This document shows, one piece after another, positions 3,547 through 16,363 of a stretch of DNA of 16,363 nt. Positions within the stretch are counted from its first letter, which is position 1. Each line of letters starts with the position of its first letter. The position numbers and the translations under genes are program-made. The DNA is taken from positions 1-16,363 of the forward strand of contig JAJRTK010000071.1 in NCBI GenBank assembly GCA_024278345.1. The letters are read 5' to 3'. The stretch is from a bacterium (GTDB lineage Bacteria > CSSED10-310 > JAJRTK01). Under the pieces are notes generated by a model, which was given only the letters and a program-made list of their open reading frames with translations, was not told the DNA's origin and searched no databases.

Positions 3547-3626
3547 CCTTCCTATGACGGGCTGCTCTGGACCTGGGGGTGTGGAGGGCCAGGGGCGACA
3601 ATGGCGAGCGGCGGGGGCCGCGGGGA

Positions 3627-3647
3627 ACTCGTGCCAAAGGCACGAGT
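3627..3647. repeat. Perfect 21-bp palindrome (9-bp arms) in divergent regulatory region
   Basis: ACTCGTGCC and GGCACGAGT flank a 3-base AAA centre. No U-tract follows on either strand, so it is not an intrinsic terminator. It lies in the 443-base gap between two divergent genes (3417-3859), 130 bases upstream of the promoter at 3777. A dimeric regulator's operator is possible. Otherwise the gap holds only the promoter at 3777, the hairpin at 3521 and A-rich tracts near 3676-3700. Confidence 0.4.
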
Positions 3648-3776
3648 CGATACCGACGGGAGCGGAAGGCAACAGAAAAAAAAGAGCATCGAAAAAACAG
3701 GCCCTGAACCAAGAGTATACTCCCGGTGGCGGGGCGGCTTTTTTTCCGGACAACCTTCCGGCAAGGTGTCTGGAGC

Positions 3777-3804
3777 TTGACAGAAAGTTCCAGATTTGTA
3801 GAAT
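3777..3804 (+). promoter_or_regulatory. Strong sigma70-type promoter for the HAMP/DUF4388 gene
   Basis: Perfect -35 TTGACA (3777-3782), a 16-base spacer and -10 TAGAAT (3799-3804, 5 of 6). The predicted start near 3811 gives a leader of about 50 nt before the ATG at 3860. This also argues against the upstream open extension of the reading frame to 3554 being translated. Confidence 0.7.
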
Positions 3805-3859
3805 TTACCCGTACCTCTTTCGACATGGGCAGGGCACTCACACGGGAAAGCAACGCATC

Positions 3860-5173
3860 ATGACCAGTTCCAAGCGATTCATTAGCCTTTCGATCAAGCT
3901 CGCGTTCTACCTTTCGATCTTGCCGCTCGTCTCTATTCCAGTCTTGACCTATTTATCGACTTCGACTCTCATCAAGGAGTTCGAGGAGAATGCCAAGCGC
4001 GTAGGCACGACGGTGACGAGCAACGTCGCGGAGCTTGGCGCCAACGCGGTGATGTCCGGCAACTTCAATTTCTTGACGCGAGCATTGAGCGATACCATCA
4101 ATGCCCAGCAGGAGTTCCTTGACGGGTTTGTTCTCAAGAGGGACGGGGAGATGTTTGCGAGCTATTCTAGGAAGTCCGGCGAAGGCGCGGAGGGGGCCAA
4201 GATTGCCGACAAACGGCTTTCCAGCCTCGCGAAAGTGGATGCCAAGGAGCAGGTGGTCTCCCTGAGCTACAGGGTCGGTTCCGTTCGATACATGGATTTC
4301 GCCAAGGATATTTACAACGGTGACGAGAAGATCGCCACTTTGGTTTTCGGGGCCTCGCTGGAGGCACTCGATGAGAAAATCCGCCAATCTTGGCTCAACG
4401 GCGGTTTGTTGGCGGCGATCGTGATCCTCATCGCCGTGGCTTTGGGGATCGTCATCGCCAGAAGCATTACGAAGCCTCTCAAAGAGTTGGTGCAGGAGGC
4501 GGCGACCATCTCTTCGGGGAACTTGGACAATGAGATCCAGGCACATTCCGGCGATGAGGTGGGACTCTTGGCCCATGCCTTCGAGCAGATGCGCCTTTCC
4601 CTCAAAAAGCAGATCGCGGAAATCGCCAAGAAAGCTCTTAGCCTGGAGGGCGATCTGAAGGTCTTTTCCTTGCCCGACCTGATGCAGTTCATTTGCACGG
4701 CAAATCGCACAGGCTATCTGGTCATCGACAACAATGGGGAAGATGCCCGAATCTACTTTCGGAAGGGCGAAATCGTTCACTCCATGGCCAGTGGGATGGT
4801 GGGGAAAGAAGCTGTTTTCCGCCTGTTCAACCTCACGTCAGGAGCCTTCCGCTTTGAGGCCGGGGACTTTGAGGTCGAGGAATCGATCCACCTGCCTTGG
4901 CAGCACGTGATCATGGAGGGTGCGCGGCAGACCGACGAGATGAACCGTGTTCGGCAGCTCATCCCCTCCGCCGATCTCCGGATCGAAGTTTCCGAGCCGC
5001 CTGACGGAATGTCGCAGGTCAACCTCACGCCAGAGGAACTCCAGATCAGCATGATCGCCCGGAACCAGAATACCGTGGCCGATATCCTGGCTGCCAGCCC
5101 GCTGGAAGAGATCGATACTTACAAGGTCCTTTACCGCCTTATCTCCACGGGATTGTTGGATACGGTGAAATAG
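3860..5173 (+). CDS. Membrane sensor: two TM segments, HAMP and DUF4388-like domain
   Basis: 437 residues. TM1 at about 13-31, an extracytoplasmic sensor region at about 32-178, TM2 at 181-203, and a HAMP linker at 200-252 (ITKPLKELVQEAATISSGNL, then DEVGLLAHAFEQM). A DUF4388/PATAN-like domain follows at about 261-360, starting LEGDLKVFSLPDLMQF and containing GYLVID and YFRKGEIVHS. The C-terminal helical segment at 386-437 ends LYRLISTGLLDT and resembles the winged-helix-like tails seen after DUF4388. There is no kinase, cyclase or methyl-accepting domain, so output is probably through protein interaction. The periplasmic region resembles single-Cache sensors, but I cannot assign a ligand. 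The start at 3860 follows GGGAAAG and gives a classic basic-then-hydrophobic N-terminus; the promoter at 3777 excludes starts further upstream. Confidence 0.85.
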   Translation: MTSSKRFISLSIKLAFYLSILPLVSIPVLTYLSTSTLIKEFEENAKRVGTTVTSNVAELGANAVMSGNFNFLTRALSDTINAQQEFLDGFVLKRDGEMFASYSRKSGEGAEGAKIADKRLSSLAKVDAKEQVVSLSYRVGSVRYMDFAKDIYNGDEKIATLVFGASLEALDEKIRQSWLNGGLLAAIVILIAVALGIVIARSITKPLKELVQEAATISSGNLDNEIQAHSGDEVGLLAHAFEQMRLSLKKQIAEIAKKALSLEGDLKVFSLPDLMQFICTANRTGYLVIDNNGEDARIYFRKGEIVHSMASGMVGKEAVFRLFNLTSGAFRFEAGDFEVEESIHLPWQHVIMEGARQTDEMNRVRQLIPSADLRIEVSEPPDGMSQVNLTPEELQISMIARNQNTVADILAASPLEEIDTYKVLYRLISTGLLDTVK

Positions 5174-6612: not shown

Positions 6613-7236
6613 TCACGAGCCGTACAGCTCGCGACCGATGAGCATGAGGCCTTCCAGATCGCAGATTTCCTTGGGAAAGAAGGGAACCCAGACAAGAGGC
6701 GCGTTTTTGTCCGGCAGACGCTCTTGGAACGTCGCGATGTTGTTTCGATCATGCTTGGCCATGGCATTCATCATTTGGCTCACCTGGATCAACGAGTCTA
6801 AATCCAGATCTAGCTCCACGAGCTGACGCTCGATTTCCAGGCGCTTGTGTTCGTCGGCCAGCTCTTGAAGGCCGCCTGGGCCAGGCGCCGTGGCGACGCG
6901 ATTGACCACCGTGAACCCCAATGAGAGCTTGAGTTTCTCAAGTTTCTCCGCAATGTAGAGCGCTTCTTCGATGGCTAGGCGCTGGGCGCTGGAAACAATG
7001 GTGAAGGAGGTGAGCCCCGGGTCTTGAAGAACGCGAAGAATCTTTTCGCTGCGCTCCTTGAATGCGGTGGCAAAGTCCTTGAAACTGCCCAAGAACTCGG
7101 CGATGTCCGTAAGCGCGCTGATTCCAAAGGCACTTTCGATCATGTCGGTGAGCAGGCTCGTCGATTTGCGAAAGATGCTGAAACTCAGGCTCGAGATTGC
7201 CTCCACCGGTTTCATGAACCAGCCAAGGGTCTGCAA
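6613..7236 (-). CDS. C-terminal fragment of the interrupted ArsA-like ATPase
   Basis: The first possible start after the TAG is TTG at 7236, with no ribosome-binding site in front. The 207-residue product would lack the DTAPTKH motif, which lies between 7341 and 7236. It retains the helical middle, FTIVSSAQRLAIEEALYIAE, GFTVVNRVAT and an ending WVPFFPKEICDLEGLMLIGR typical of the family's C-terminus. Independent translation is unlikely. Confidence 0.45.
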   Translation of the reverse strand: MQTLGWFMKPVEAISSLSFSIFRKSTSLLTDMIESAFGISALTDIAEFLGSFKDFATAFKERSEKILRVLQDPGLTSFTIVSSAQRLAIEEALYIAEKLEKLKLSLGFTVVNRVATAPGPGGLQELADEHKRLEIERQLVELDLDLDSLIQVSQMMNAMAKHDRNNIATFQERLPDKNAPLVWVPFFPKEICDLEGLMLIGRELYGS

Positions 7237-7341
7237 GTCGAACAGGTTGATGAGCCGCGAAGGGGTTTCAAAGAAATCGATGGCGTGTTTCGTGGGAGCC
7301 GTATCGACAACGATGAGGTCGTAGTCACGCTTGAAGTAAAG

Positions 7342-7761
7342 CTAGTATAGCTTCCCCAAAGCCACGACCTCTTGAGCTCCCACAAGAGAATCCGCCATCA
7401 CTTGATACATCTTCTGGCTCAAGATCCGATTCGCGGCGGCCTCGGTGGGCGCGATTTTCACAATGAGCTCGTCCATGACTTTTTTCGTGTCCATCATCAT
7501 GGCATTGAGTTGGCCCTTGATGGGAAGCGGGCTAAGATTTTTCAGTTGAACCGGGGTCTCTACGGCTTCCAAACCCGATAGGCCAAGGGCGTCGGCGAGC
7601 CTTTTTGCCGGATCGATGGTGATGACCAAGACCTTTCGACCGGCCATGGCCGCCCAAAGTGCCGTCGCCGCGGCGACGGTTGTTTTGCCCACTCCGCCGG
7701 AACCGCAAAACATCAAAACGCTGCGGCTGAGAAGAATTTCACGTGGTATCCGCAACATCAC
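7342..7761 (-). CDS. N-terminal fragment of the interrupted ArsA-like ATPase
   Basis: The portion before the TAG: 139 residues with the P-loop (GSGGVGKTT) and TIDPAKRLADALG but without the switch II/DTAP motif. It could not complete an ATPase site alone. Its P-loop has Ser where the deviant Walker A signature Lys usually sits (compare GKGGVGKTT in the neighbour). Confidence 0.6.
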   Translation of the reverse strand: MMLRIPREILLSRSVLMFCGSGGVGKTTVAAATALWAAMAGRKVLVITIDPAKRLADALGLSGLEAVETPVQLKNLSPLPIKGQLNAMMMDTKKVMDELIVKIAPTEAAANRILSQKMYQVMADSLVGAQEVVALGKLY

Positions 7762-8693
7762 GAAACCGATGCCTCCCGAGTGAGGAACTTTGCCACTTCT
7801 TCCAAAAACTCTACATCCTTGGCTTCGTCGGCAAGAAAAGGGATCTGAATTTGAGGGGCGTCCATCGCCCCCTGAAGTCGCTCGATGTGGTGGCGGTTGA
7901 TCTGGTTGCGGGCATGGTGAAAGAGGCCCGCCGCGGAGAAACCGCGGGCGAGGTCAGGACTCGCGAAAAAGGGCGCGGCTTCGCGGAGTCGCTCCAGCGC
8001 TTCCGGGTCCATGGGGCGGCTCAATGATGGGAAGATCCCGTTGATGACGATGGCATCGATGTCCAGGGACAGCTTGCCACGGATCGCTTTTTCCAGCTCA
8101 ATCGACTCGTTGACTGGCATTTCTTCGGCCAGCGTCACGATCAGAGTCCCCGTGTTTGCCCTGTCGGTGACCATGGACTGGACCGCTAGGGCTTTGCGGT
8201 GAAGGGAACCCACCTTGAAGGTTCGGAGCGCTTGATGGGCAACCTCGAAATAGCTGATCCCATGTCCAGTCGCTGGAGCGTCGATGAGAACTCTATCGAA
8301 CCGCGGTCGCGCCCGTTCCAGGAATTCTCGAATCGCGTCGAGGACGATGAGCTCCTTGAATCCAGGGGCCGCCGCAGTGAAATAACGATAGACGGAACTC
8401 TCGAGGATTCGGCGGTAGATCGTCTTGAAGCGGAAGGACTTTTTGATGAAATCGTCAAAGACCATCTGTTCGTCGAAATGAAGGGCGAACAGGTTGGGTC
8501 GGAGCGCAACTTCCTTGAGGCCCATCGAGGGAATTCCAAAATATCGCCGGATTTGATCCGTGGAGTGGATTCCCACAAGAAGTACACGGAGCCCCTGTCG
8601 GGCCATCGCAAGGCCCAGAGCACAACATATTGTCGTTTTGCCGACGCCCCCTTTGCCAAGAATTAGCTGAAGGCGTTTGGAGCTTGGAAACAT
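7758..8693 (-). CDS. ArsA/GET3-like ATPase, first of a tandem pair
   Basis: 311 residues of the deviant Walker A P-loop ATPase group that includes ArsA (arsenite pump), GET3/TRC40 (tail-anchored protein targeting) and the paired bacterial homologues such as mycobacterial Rv3679-Rv3680. GKGGVGKTT, with signature Lys14, is at 13-21; the switch II motif IDAPATGHG is at about 137-145. The C-terminal half has GTLIVTLAEEMPVNESIEL and DIDAIVINGIF. No arsenite-binding cysteine cluster is evident and no arsenic gene is nearby, so I would not call it an arsenic pump. The ATG at 8693 puts the P-loop at the usual position; an open extension to 8813 passes through hairpin-forming leader sequence and is probably untranslated. 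It overlaps the next paralogue, implying a stoichiometric heterodimer. Confidence 0.88.
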   Translation of the reverse strand: MFPSSKRLQLILGKGGVGKTTICCALGLAMARQGLRVLLVGIHSTDQIRRYFGIPSMGLKEVALRPNLFALHFDEQMVFDDFIKKSFRFKTIYRRILESSVYRYFTAAAPGFKELIVLDAIREFLERARPRFDRVLIDAPATGHGISYFEVAHQALRTFKVGSLHRKALAVQSMVTDRANTGTLIVTLAEEMPVNESIELEKAIRGKLSLDIDAIVINGIFPSLSRPMDPEALERLREAAPFFASPDLARGFSAAGLFHHARNQINRHHIERLQGAMDAPQIQIPFLADEAKDVEFLEEVAKFLTREASVS

Positions 8694-8731
8694 CACGGCC
8701 AAAATAGACCTTCCGAATAATTTGGGAGCAG

Positions 8732-8789
8732 TTGGTGAAAAAAGACCCACCCCTTTTGGGACAGGTTTCTCACCAAAATCCGTGGTGAG
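8732..8789 (-). promoter_or_regulatory. Leader of the ArsA-like operon with alternative hairpins
   Basis: On the minus strand CTCACCA (8789-8783) pairs perfectly with TGGTGAG (8775-8769). Part of that second arm, TTGGTGA (8776-8770), can instead pair perfectly with TCACCAA (8738-8732) on the far side of the terminator-like hairpin. Only one pairing can exist at a time. The remaining gap up to 8976 has further hairpins but no recognisable promoter for this operon. Confidence 0.4.
8738..8766 (-). terminator. Terminator-like hairpin in the leader of the ArsA-like operon
   Basis: Minus strand: ACCTGTCCC (8766-8758), loop AAAA, GGGGTGGGT (8753-8745), a 9-pair stem with three G-T wobbles, then C and six T residues (8743-8738). 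It is 45 bases before the first gene's ATG and no minus-strand gene ends upstream, which suggests attenuation, not end-of-gene termination. Confidence 0.45.
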
Positions 8790-8976
8790 ATAGGCGAGGC
8801 TCCTTCCTACCAAAGGATAAGAAAAGATGGTGCGGAAGCCGTTACCTCACCCGCTGTAAGGACGTCCAACCGACAACGAGATGGGGTGGACGCCTACCCA
8901 GGAAAATCCGGGACGAGTCTCCCGGGCGGTTGGGGGGGCCGGAAACCCAACTATCCCTAGATGAGGGAGACGAGGA

Positions 8977-12403: not shown

Positions 12404-12743
12404 TGGGTAGATATGGATGTGTCGTCTTTTTGTCGTCACGTCCCCTATGACATCCCGATCACGCCTAACACCTTATCCGGAATCTTGCACCACGGCTCCA
12501 TGGAAGGCAGGTTGAAGCGCCTTCCCATCAAAGCAGAGGGGCACGAGCCGGGGTGTAGGGGCGGAAATCTTCCCTACGGCCAGTGAGGTTGCCCAGCCGA
12601 CGGAGCACGGTTGGGGAGGATGGACAAGGCGCAGCGGAAGACCCGTTGCGAGGGCTATGGCTCTACGGGTAAGGTGCTTGGAGCACCTTGTTTCGGGTAA
12701 GAGCATACCAGGTGTCAGGGACGGCAGCGAGGGAGCATCGGCC
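12404..12743 (+). promoter_or_regulatory. Long hairpin-rich leader of the TPR gene (possible structured RNA)
   Basis: No convincing gene lies in these 340 bases. Four local hairpins follow one another: GTAGGG/CCCTAC (12555-12560/12572-12577), CAGCCG/CGGTTG (12594-12599/12608-12613, one wobble), ACCCGT/ACGGGT (12641-12646/12665-12670), and directly after it AAGGTGCT-TGG-AGCACCTT (12671-12689), a perfect 8-pair stem with no U-tract behind it. It matches no riboswitch class, tmRNA, RNase P, SRP or 6S RNA that I know by sequence. Confidence 0.35.
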
Positions 12744-15173
12744 TTGGAAACGCAAAAAAACCGCCAATTGGCGAAAGAGCTGTTTCGTCAGGGAGTTGAC
12801 GCCTATAAGGAGGGTCGGCTGGCAGATGCCATAAGGCTTTGGCAAAAAGTGTCGAATCTCGACCCCCGGCATCCGCGAGCAGCGAAGTATCGGGCCAAGG
12901 CGCTGGCAAGGTTGCCCGCGGAGGAACGGGATATGCTGGAGACCGAGGCTGCCTTGGGGATGGTCGAGTTTGGGGATGGGGCACTGGAGCCTGAGTCGGC
13001 GAAACCGGCTGAACCAGATTTTGAGATCGCGGTGCCAGTTGATGACGGGACCGCTGCACCGTATCGCGGGGCGACTGCTGAATCAGCGTGGCAGTCGGAG
13101 CTCGCCGGTCACACGGTGCCTTCTCCCGCGGAAAAAGCTGAGGATTCTTTACCCGCCTGGGAGGAGGCGCGGAGCGGAGCGTTGCCAGACTGGAAACCGG
13201 CGGGAAATGCCTTCCAGTCAAGCATGGCAGCACCGACAGAGGGCGGGGAACAGGGGACATTCCCCGCTTTGCCAGAGACACTTTCTGACCCCTTCGGGGG
13301 CGGACTACCTTCCGGAGTGGTGGAGCAGAGTGATTTCGAGACTTCGGCTCCGGTGCCACCAGCGCTCGGGCAACAGGAACCTTTTAGTGGTGGAGAACCT
13401 TGGAGCTCTCCTGACTCGGGATTGCCGCGAGCGAGGGCTGCGACCACAGAAGATCCGGCAAGTGAGCCTTTTTCTGAGCTTCCTTCGGAACCTCGAAGCC
13501 AGGAAGAGGCAAGTCCTAGCGGTTGGAACGATCCTTTTGCCATTTCCGAAGGCAGCTTATCCTCCTTTTCGGCCGATGCCTTGTGGAGTGAGGGCGGCTC
13601 GGAAGATCCTTTTTCTGCTTCTGATCCATTCCAAGAGTCATCGGGGGCTCCCCTGGCGTTGCCCGCTCAGGCCTCTGACGGAGCCGATTCAGAAGCAGCA
13701 CCTTTGGATCTATCGACGGCGCTTCAAGATTTTCAATCTCCCTCTCTCCCTCAGGACGTACCGCCCGATGGCTTTGGAGATTCCGCTGGATTGGCGTTTG
13801 GGAATGCCGTTGTTCAAGAGGAGCCGACCGGTCCCTCGCTCTTCGATGCCGATGTATTGAGTCTCGATGTTGGAGATCTTTCTGTCTCCGACGAAAAAGA
13901 TGATGAGGGTGTCAGCTTTGTGGCCGCGGAGTTCTTGGACCAAGTGAGGGACGCTCCTTCCTCTGAGCCAGCAGTGGAGGGGATTGGCGGAACGGCCACG
14001 GAAGATGCCCCTTTGTCGGACCAAGCAGGAGCAGCAGATGATTTCCCAGATTTTTCAGAGGTTTCTGGATTTTCTTCGGCATCTGATGACTCTGTTTCGT
14101 CCCAGGGCAGCGAGTCGATTCCCAAGGATATTATCATCAACCCGTTTGCCGCTAACAAGGGGCGCTCTCCCTTGCTTCAAGGGGCTCCTCGACCGAAGCC
14201 CCCGGTGAGCAAGCTGCCATTTGTTGTCGCCTTGGCGGTTTTCGTGGTGGGAGGGGCGGGCTTCTATTTTTGGAATGAGGCCGGCAAAGAGCAGGCTGCC
14301 ATTGTCGCTCAGCAAGAGCGTGACCTGAGGAAGCAGCAAGAGCAAGTCAAGCAGGCCCGGCAGAAGGTCAAGGCGGCCAGCGAGGCCTTGAAGAGTGGTC
14401 AAACGGTACAGGCTCGGGACCTGCTTGAGGAAGCTGTGGCCCTCGACCCAGAAAACAAAGGGGCCGTCAAACAGCTTGCCGTGGCTCAAGGTCAACTGGA
14501 TGAGCGTGTCAAGTCGTTTGTTGAGGAAGGGGGCAATCTTCTGAGACGATCTCAATACGAAGCCTGCCTCATTTATGTGAGTCGAGGGCTCGAAATCGAT
14601 CCCAAGCACAAGGAACTGAAGGCCCTCCAGAAGCAGGCCGGGGAGCTACAGAAGATCAAAGGGAGTGACACTGAGATCGCTTTCCGCTATCGCAATTCGA
14701 GGGAGTTTGTAAAAGAAGCGGGCAAGAAAGAGGCCGAAGGGAAACTTGTCGAGGCGCTGGAGCTGTTATTGAGCGCAAGTAAACTTCACAAAACCGAAGA
14801 GATGGAGCGCCGAATCGGGGTTATCCGCGGTAAACTGGCCGACGATGGCAGGATCAAGAGAAACGCTGCGTCTATTGTTGAAGAAGGCAAAGCCTTTCTT
14901 AGGTCAGGAAACCCCACCAGTGCCAGGCTCTCTTTTAGGCGCGTTTTATCAGTATTGCCGAAATACCAGCCAGCACTAGAAGGGCTTAAAGAGGCTAACG
15001 CAGCTCTGAAGCGGCAGGAAGATCTCCGCTATTATAAATGGATGACGATTCGAAGCTACAAATACGGAAATACAGGGGAAGCATTGAGGTTTGTGCGAAA
15101 GTGGCTCGAATTGGACCCCGAAGACCAAGGAGCCCAGTTCTACTTGAATCAGCTCACTGGAGCGGAGAACTGA
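12744..15173 (+). CDS. Large single-pass TPR protein with acidic disordered linker
   Basis: 809 residues from TTG 12744, chosen because GAGGGAG lies 8 bases before it; the ATG at 12657 has no good ribosome site and its extra 29 codons run through a perfect hairpin. Residues 5-45 form a TPR-like pair (AKELFRQGVDAYKEGRLADA). Residues 75-480 are rich in Ser, Pro, Asp, Glu and Gly and probably disordered, with seven [DEN]PF motifs. A basic, proline-rich stretch (GAPRPKPPVSK) precedes one TM at 492-510 (PFVVALAVFVVGGAGFYFW), giving N-in/C-out by the positive-inside rule. Residues 515-809 are a coiled coil and several TPRs (QARDLLEEAVALDPENK; SYKYGNTGEALRFVRKWLEL), ending near GAEN. It resembles a polarity or scaffold protein in layout (FimV-like in composition, but with opposite topology). 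Function unknown. The GAF-like gene starts 14 bases downstream. Confidence 0.85.
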   Translation: METQKNRQLAKELFRQGVDAYKEGRLADAIRLWQKVSNLDPRHPRAAKYRAKALARLPAEERDMLETEAALGMVEFGDGALEPESAKPAEPDFEIAVPVDDGTAAPYRGATAESAWQSELAGHTVPSPAEKAEDSLPAWEEARSGALPDWKPAGNAFQSSMAAPTEGGEQGTFPALPETLSDPFGGGLPSGVVEQSDFETSAPVPPALGQQEPFSGGEPWSSPDSGLPRARAATTEDPASEPFSELPSEPRSQEEASPSGWNDPFAISEGSLSSFSADALWSEGGSEDPFSASDPFQESSGAPLALPAQASDGADSEAAPLDLSTALQDFQSPSLPQDVPPDGFGDSAGLAFGNAVVQEEPTGPSLFDADVLSLDVGDLSVSDEKDDEGVSFVAAEFLDQVRDAPSSEPAVEGIGGTATEDAPLSDQAGAADDFPDFSEVSGFSSASDDSVSSQGSESIPKDIIINPFAANKGRSPLLQGAPRPKPPVSKLPFVVALAVFVVGGAGFYFWNEAGKEQAAIVAQQERDLRKQQEQVKQARQKVKAASEALKSGQTVQARDLLEEAVALDPENKGAVKQLAVAQGQLDERVKSFVEEGGNLLRRSQYEACLIYVSRGLEIDPKHKELKALQKQAGELQKIKGSDTEIAFRYRNSREFVKEAGKKEAEGKLVEALELLLSASKLHKTEEMERRIGVIRGKLADDGRIKRNAASIVEEGKAFLRSGNPTSARLSFRRVLSVLPKYQPALEGLKEANAALKRQEDLRYYKWMTIRSYKYGNTGEALRFVRKWLELDPEDQGAQFYLNQLTGAEN

Positions 15174-15187
15174 TTTTGGAGGGAAAC

Positions 15188-16363
15188 GTGGTGGCGACGA
15201 GAGAACAGGCCGAGGTACTGGCTCTTTTGAAGGAGCTTCAGCAAGACGACATTGGGGATATTAGACGCCTTGCGCATGGGGTCGTCGAAAGGATCAAGAG
15301 GGTGGAGAATGCCGTCTCCACTCTGCAGGCCAAAGTCGAAAGTTCGATGACTTACGGCAGCTCCGAGGAGGGGGAATCCCTAGACACTCTTGTAGACTTT
15401 ACTGGTGCCTGCCAAGAGGTCAATAGCAGCGCTCAGCTTCCAGCTCTGGTGGCAGAGTACGCGTCCCGCTATCATTCCCGAGCTTTTGTTTTCGCTCGTC
15501 GAGAGAGCCATCTGGTTGGATGGGAGTGTTTTGTCAACGGAGAGAGCATGAGCTCCTCTTTTCGGGGAACCGCGGTCGATCTCACCGAGTTCGATGATCT
15601 CTTGCTTTCCCTCGACGGGGGAGAGGCCTGGAGCTACGCGGGGCGTTTTGAGCCGTTCTATTCCCAGATTGATATGGTTTTGGGGCAGGTTCCGGTGGGA
15701 GGAACCTGTTTTGTCCCTCTGACAGTGGGAAAACACTGTGTGGGAGTTTTGGGGGCCGATACACCTGATTCGGGGGAGAAGCTAGATGAGTCTCTCCTCT
15801 TGCTCTTGGGCAGGCACGCTGGATTATCCATTGAGAACCTCTTGCGAACACAGGAGTCCCTTTCTTCAGCGGAGGCCGCGTCAGTGGCTCCGTCTACTGA
15901 GCTAGTTCTTGAGCCACCGGAAGCCTCGCTGTCCGCTCCGGATGCAGCCGGCCTGGCTGTACAAGTGGCCCCTTTGGGCGCACCATCCTTTTCTGTAGAT
16001 GAAGAACCGGAGCCAAGCCAAGAGACTCTGACTGAAGAGGCGCGGAAAGGCGACACGGGACTGGACAGCGTGTTGCTGGGGGATCCCGAGGAGCTTGAGG
16101 CCAATGCGGGAGCCGCCGTTGGCGGCCTTGTGGATGATATCATCGAATTCGAGGAGCTTGCTGATCAGCCAGATGAGTCTTCGGCGGTTGAAGATATCAT
16201 CGAGTTCGAGGAAACCCCTCAAGAGTCGTCCGCTAGTCCGAGCTCAGAAGCGACTTTGGCGGTTGAGGATATCATCGAGTTCGAGGAAACCCCTCAAGAT
16301 CCATCCGCTAGTCCGAGCTCAGAAGCGACTTTGGCGGTTGAGGATATCATCGAGTTCGAGGCA
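15188..16363 (+). CDS. GAF-like domain protein with acidic repeat tail (runs off window)
   Basis: 392 codons are open to the window edge with no stop. Two adjacent GTG codons (15188, 15191) follow GGAGGG (15178-15183); either may be the start. Residues 1-60 are a predicted coiled coil (LALLKELQQDDIGDIRRLAH; RIKRVENAVSTLQAKVE). Residues about 63-222 look like a GAF domain: alpha-beta pattern with LPALVAEYASRYHSRAFVFA, then GTCFVPLTVGKHCVGVLGAD and a final helix LLLLLGRHAGLSIENLL. The rest is Pro/Ser/Glu/Asp-rich, with at least four copies of the motif DIIEFE. No TM or signal peptide is seen, so it is probably cytosolic. Closely spaced behind the TPR gene, it is likely co-transcribed with it. 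Ligand and output are unknown. Confidence 0.82.
   Translation, partial: MVATREQAEVLALLKELQQDDIGDIRRLAHGVVERIKRVENAVSTLQAKVESSMTYGSSEEGESLDTLVDFTGACQEVNSSAQLPALVAEYASRYHSRAFVFARRESHLVGWECFVNGESMSSSFRGTAVDLTEFDDLLLSLDGGEAWSYAGRFEPFYSQIDMVLGQVPVGGTCFVPLTVGKHCVGVLGADTPDSGEKLDESLLLLLGRHAGLSIENLLRTQESLSSAEAASVAPSTELVLEPPEASLSAPDAAGLAVQVAPLGAPSFSVDEEPEPSQETLTEEARKGDTGLDSVLLGDPEELEANAGAAVGGLVDDIIEFEELADQPDESSAVEDIIEFEETPQESSASPSSEATLAVEDIIEFEETPQDPSASPSSEATLAVEDIIEFEA
16130..16363 (+). repeat. Tandem 75-bp coding repeat encoding VEDIIEFEE
   Basis: Units begin at 16184, 16259 and 16334, exactly 75 bases apart. The first two complete units differ at 4 of 75 positions; the third is cut by the window end but is identical over its first 28 bases to the second. 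A diverged earlier copy (VDDIIEFEE) begins at 16130, 57 bases before the equivalent point in the first unit. Each unit encodes 25 residues: an acidic-hydrophobic core AVEDIIEFEE and a Ser/Pro-rich linker. The repeat probably continues beyond the window. Confidence 0.95.

Follow-up and report, generated by a model that had tools for sequence, protein, structure and literature searches.

Inner-membrane hubs of the FimV type carry one transmembrane (TM) helix, an acidic disordered cytoplasmic region and cytoplasmic TPRs, with a LysM domain located before the TM helix and the TPRs at the cytoplasmic C terminus. In eukaryotes, DPF/NPF motifs are characteristic of endocytic proteins such as epsin, Eps15 and stonin, and we know of no bacterial reader of these motifs. 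Eukaryotic NPF readers have been described (PMC12808100), and the domains of bacterial TPR-containing Ser/Thr kinases have been surveyed (PMC1262709).

The TPR protein encoded in the window (the entire 16,363-nucleotide stretch of DNA that was analyzed) resembles FimV-type hubs in having one TM helix, an acidic and probably disordered region predicted to be cytoplasmic, and a cytoplasmic TPR. However, its order and predicted topology are the reverse of those of FimV, with TPRs also across the membrane, and a Pfam scan yields no match to LysM in this protein, which has TPRs at both ends. As in the kinase-TPR-TM-TPR open reading frames (ORFs) of its phylum, TPR arrays flank a single TM helix, and its own genome has a kinase gene beside a TPR-TM protein. 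Unlike the TPR-containing Ser/Thr kinases, the window protein lacks a kinase domain, and its predicted cytoplasmic side consists only of a TPR and the acidic linker. The similarity to epsin, Eps15 and stonin lies in the occurrence of several DPF/EPF/NPF triplets within an acidic, probably disordered chain, whereas domain homology to these proteins is absent and the array of triplets is not conserved among relatives.

Architecture and predicted topology

ORF analysis reveals 838 open codons, with no internal stop, at positions 12657 to 15173 of the forward strand. The protein is 838 amino acids long if translation begins at ATG 12657, from which all residue numbers given here are counted, and 809 amino acids long if it begins at TTG 12744. 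Judging from sequence features, the TTG codon is more likely to be the start, because it is preceded by GAGGGAG at a spacing of ~8 and because the resulting N-terminal length matches that of the G001 protein described below. The original prediction of a membrane-spanning TPR protein is borne out by the intact ORF, by the Pfam TPR matches, and by a single clear TM segment evident from hydropathy (Table 1).

Table 1. Features of the TPR protein gene and of the gene located downstream.
Feature	Window position	Strand	Basis
TPR, acidic probably disordered region, TM, TPR protein	12744..15173	+	ORF, Pfam TPR, relatives
N-terminal TPR module, predicted cytoplasmic, aa 30-100	12744..12956	+	Pfam TPR_2 at residues 39-72 (7.7e-15); pLDDT 82-92 at residues 31-90
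Acidic low-complexity linker, probably disordered, aa 102-515	12960..14201	+	Composition; pLDDT about 30 over most of residues 101-544 (two-sequence alignment, weak evidence of disorder)
Six [DE]PF motifs, clustered, aa 211-325	13287..13631	+	Motif positions
Lone NPF adjoining the membrane, aa 495-497	14139..14147	+	Motif positions
Transmembrane helix, aa ~517-540	14205..14276	+	Hydropathy maximum at 520-538; modeled helix from about 521
Long helix followed by TPR blocks at the C terminus (predicted periplasmic)	14277..15170	+	Pfam, structure models, Foldseek
GAF-like protein with acidic 26-aa repeats	15188..16363, runs off the window	+	ORF, repeat match to contig C239

Pfam also detects a second TPR region around residues 573 to 611. 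An AlphaFold model derived from a shallow alignment predicts helices confidently at residues ~35 to 100 and 735 to 838, and with fair confidence at residues 545 to 615. When the C-terminal half is modeled from three sequences, the TM helix runs on into a long helix that precedes the TPR blocks. The structures matched by Foldseek are TPR arrays of a generic kind. The TPR portions of the window protein have the fold of such superhelices (consensus CTPR, P58IPK and the OGT TPR domain), but the global superposition is weak and no specific functional relative emerges.

Basic residues (NKGRSPLLQGAPRPKPPVSK) occur just before the TM helix and the N terminus is devoid of a hydrophobic segment, and therefore an N-in topology fits this protein. 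With this orientation, the N-terminal TPR and the linker would reside in the cytoplasm and the C-terminal TPRs in the periplasm. TPR modules had been proposed for both sides of the membrane, and they are indeed present at both ends of the protein, but the cytoplasmic TPR spans only residues ~30 to 100 and most TPRs are C-terminal. The linker, which corresponds to the disordered stretch of roughly 400 residues that had been noted earlier, comprises ~414 residues of acidic sequence modeled with low confidence and is probably disordered. Its net charge is -62 in 414 amino acids, and the acidic stretches of two relatives carry net charges of -53 in 195 amino acids (G001) and -25 in 268 amino acids (G003).

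Enrichment of [DEN]PF triplets in the linker

All seven Asp/Glu/Asn-Pro-Phe triplets named in the original prediction are present, beginning at residues 211, 241, 270, 292, 317, 323 and 495. Linker composition predicts 0.51 [DEN]PF triplets, and none of 100,000 shuffled sequences reaches seven. As [DEN]PF had been chosen with the sequence already in view, we corrected for motif choice by ranking it against every three-residue motif that has one class position. It scores highest among them, with a corrected P value of 0.0005 (one of 2000 shuffles is equally extreme). The enrichment is real and, after correction, moderate.

One explanation for this enrichment is that the array serves as a multivalent platform of short linear motifs for one bacterial reader domain, with a logic like that of the DPF/NPF arrays of clathrin adaptors in the absence of homology. 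This explanation gains from the survival of the enrichment after correction for motif choice, from the fact that D, E or N precedes each of the seven PF dipeptides in the linker, and from the placement of the motifs. A stretch of 112 residues holds six of the seven (P about 0.03 under uniform placement), and the first five are spaced 22 to 30 residues apart. Moreover, most of the copies use different codons, and the DNA shows little repetition, with one weak and imperfect 31-nucleotide repeat joining two motif copies; these observations argue that the array is not the product of recent tandem duplication. We nevertheless consider a motif platform of this kind unlikely, as no array is present in any same-layout protein found, no second array-bearing client was identified in the genome or the phylum by the searches described below, and no reader domain is known.

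Alternatively, the motif excess might have no binding role, and could be a by-product of an acidic linker rich in Pro, Ser, Ala and Phe that grows by slippage and drift. The 31-nucleotide repeat is consistent with such growth, as are the absence of the motif from relatives and the clear expansion of other short peptides in the neighboring gene and in a kinase encoded on contig C403 of the same genome (see below). However, most motif copies differ in their flanks as well as their codons, and shuffles of the same composition fail to yield the excess, which makes this second explanation doubtful as well.

Same-layout proteins in the phylum

The comparison set comprises eight genomes of a little-sampled phylum, none other of which is from the same genus or family. 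A search of the genome contigs with the whole protein revealed no close homologue, and a scan with the C-terminal alignment matched only the G001 protein and generic TPR proteins. The G001 protein (L016:4572-7127; GenBank contig JAFGSJ010000051.1, a metagenome-assembled genome, isolate Zod_Metabat.886) is the clearest relative, with an E-value of 3e-7 in the genome search and 28% identity over 141 C-terminal residues. Its parts are ordered as TPRs, acidic stretch, TPRs, TM helix and TPRs. A profile of the TM-TPR portion picks up the same layout in G003 (L073:6717-8951; 9.3e-9), and a profile built from three sequences adds proteins of the same layout in G002 and G005. These relatives are distant, sharing 18 to 25% identity over the TM-TPR part. 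Similarity to the window protein is detectable in the TM-TPR half, and the flanking of a single TM helix by TPRs and the acidic stretch are features of the window protein also. A profile search of 386 genomes yielded mostly TPR-only matches, and a G007 match was rejected as an orthologue because it is a multi-TM, TMTC-like TPR protein.

The genome that carries the window encodes, on contig C403, a further protein with a TPR, an acidic stretch, a TPR and a C-terminal TM helix, which adjoins a Ser/Thr kinase ORF. G004 encodes kinase-TPR-TM-TPR fusions with Pro/Thr-rich linkers after the TM helix (L076, L083), and G224 encodes an FHA-FHA-TM-TPR protein. This general layout is a common one in the phylum, where it is also seen in kinase fusions, and the architectures from G004 and G224 suggest a general signaling or scaffold module in the TM-TPR half.

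[DEN]PF triplets are absent from the acidic stretches of the same-layout proteins of G001, G003, G002 and G005, and from both the C403 TPR-acidic-TM protein and the adjacent kinase ORF. The one DPF in the G003 protein lies inside a folded TPR and represents an ordinary TPR residue pattern. Homologues without the PF motifs, which the original prediction had named as evidence against it, are therefore what is seen among these distant relatives. Since the proteins examined share so little identity with the window protein, close orthologues might conserve the array.

Searches for additional arrays were similarly negative. The PF cluster alone, used as a query against the eight genomes, gave only chance-level matches, and a DNA pattern that pairs DPF codon sets at most 30 bases apart, with only GAT as the first codon, recovered this gene alone. 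No second [DEN]PF array was found in the same genome or in the phylum by these searches. Searches for the EH and alpha-adaptin ear families gave no match here, and none in control genomes either, so that they weigh neither for nor against a reader. A search of the available literature library returned nothing on bacterial DPF arrays. The SSB-type DDIPF tail motif requires a C-terminal carboxylate, and this candidate was rejected because the window motifs are internal.

Acidic-aromatic repeats and a possible role for the linker

The gene starting at about 15188 is probably co-transcribed with the TPR protein gene. Its product has a region that reads as GAF-like from its sequence, with no Pfam match, and a helix motif at the C terminus (ADAKKLARLILQDIKLYNQDKIKIGIARGSL) shared with a G001 protein (L074:5304-6344). 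The G001 counterpart of the gene is located elsewhere in its genome, and thus the gene pairing is not conserved in G001. A disordered-looking region of the downstream protein carries the acidic-aromatic repeat VEDIIEFEETPQ, and the acidic tail of this protein contains tandem 26-amino-acid repeats of AVEDIIEFEETPQDPSASPSSEATL. The window ends within the latter, and the same repeat is found in frame at the end of contig C239, which, based on this match, probably supplies the rest of the gene (L026 17836-18909, minus strand). The break in the assembly appears to be due to these repeats.

The C403 Ser/Thr kinase-TPR ORF (L085, minus strand) contains FNPVTTA(F/L)(F/L)D three times, along with a fourth, variant form, INTAFFDAAF; the TT of these repeats could be candidate phosphorylation sites. 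This acidic-aromatic repeat, FNPVTTAFFDAAFGDDD, occupies a disordered-looking region of the kinase. This genome thus encodes at least three proteins whose disordered-looking regions contain short acidic-aromatic repeats, which are lineage-specific and differ from protein to protein.

On balance, we favor as reasonably probable the explanation that the window protein is an ordinary bitopic inner-membrane TPR protein, one of a set found across the phylum, and that its linker is a tether with acidic-aromatic 'stickers' amplified in this lineage. We reach this conclusion because the same layout occurs without the motif in G001, G003, G002 and G005, because the C403 protein of the same genome combines TPR, acidic stretch and TM helix without the motif, and because acidic-aromatic repeats of other kinds occur elsewhere in this genome in regions that are probably disordered. 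A short TPR and a long acidic disordered linker would occupy the cytoplasmic side, and the single TM helix would lead into TPR blocks in the periplasm, whose binding partners would be one or more envelope proteins. The linker would act as a flexible tether bearing weak sticker peptides, of which [DE]PF would be the version amplified in this lineage. Through many low-affinity contacts, the stickers may keep a cytoplasmic partner or other signaling proteins near the membrane, and the cytoplasmic TPR might take part in such weak, multivalent binding of cytoplasmic partners.

This tether explanation preserves the layout of the scaffold originally envisioned, in which a cytoplasmic multivalent platform is coupled to periplasmic TPRs, but not a conserved DPF/NPF platform, given that relatives lack the motif. 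It is quite improbable that the protein is an inner-membrane scaffold with a genuine [DE]PF code and a specific cytoplasmic reader, as a lineage-confined, convergent analogue of endocytic DPF/NPF arrays; nothing in this analysis points to a dedicated PF-reading partner. The proposed bacterial counterpart of eukaryotic adaptor recruitment is likewise unsupported, as the likeness is confined to a three-residue motif that is missing from the acidic stretches of the relatives found. If true, such a code would be a rare case of multivalent short-linear-motif recruitment at the bacterial inner membrane. As found, the value of the locus is mainly descriptive: within this little-sampled phylum, TPR-TM-TPR proteins are common and in some cases fused to kinases, and signaling proteins repeatedly feature long acidic linkers that carry acidic-aromatic repeats specific to the lineage.

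Elsewhere in the window, adjacent ArsA/GET3-family ATPase ORFs that are BagA/BagB-like are located at 6613-8813 on the minus strand. The second of these appears split (7342-7761 and 6613-7236), perhaps by a frameshift or an assembly error. The plus strand at 3554-5173 encodes a membrane HAMP protein with a C-terminal DUF4388 domain and a weak dCache match.
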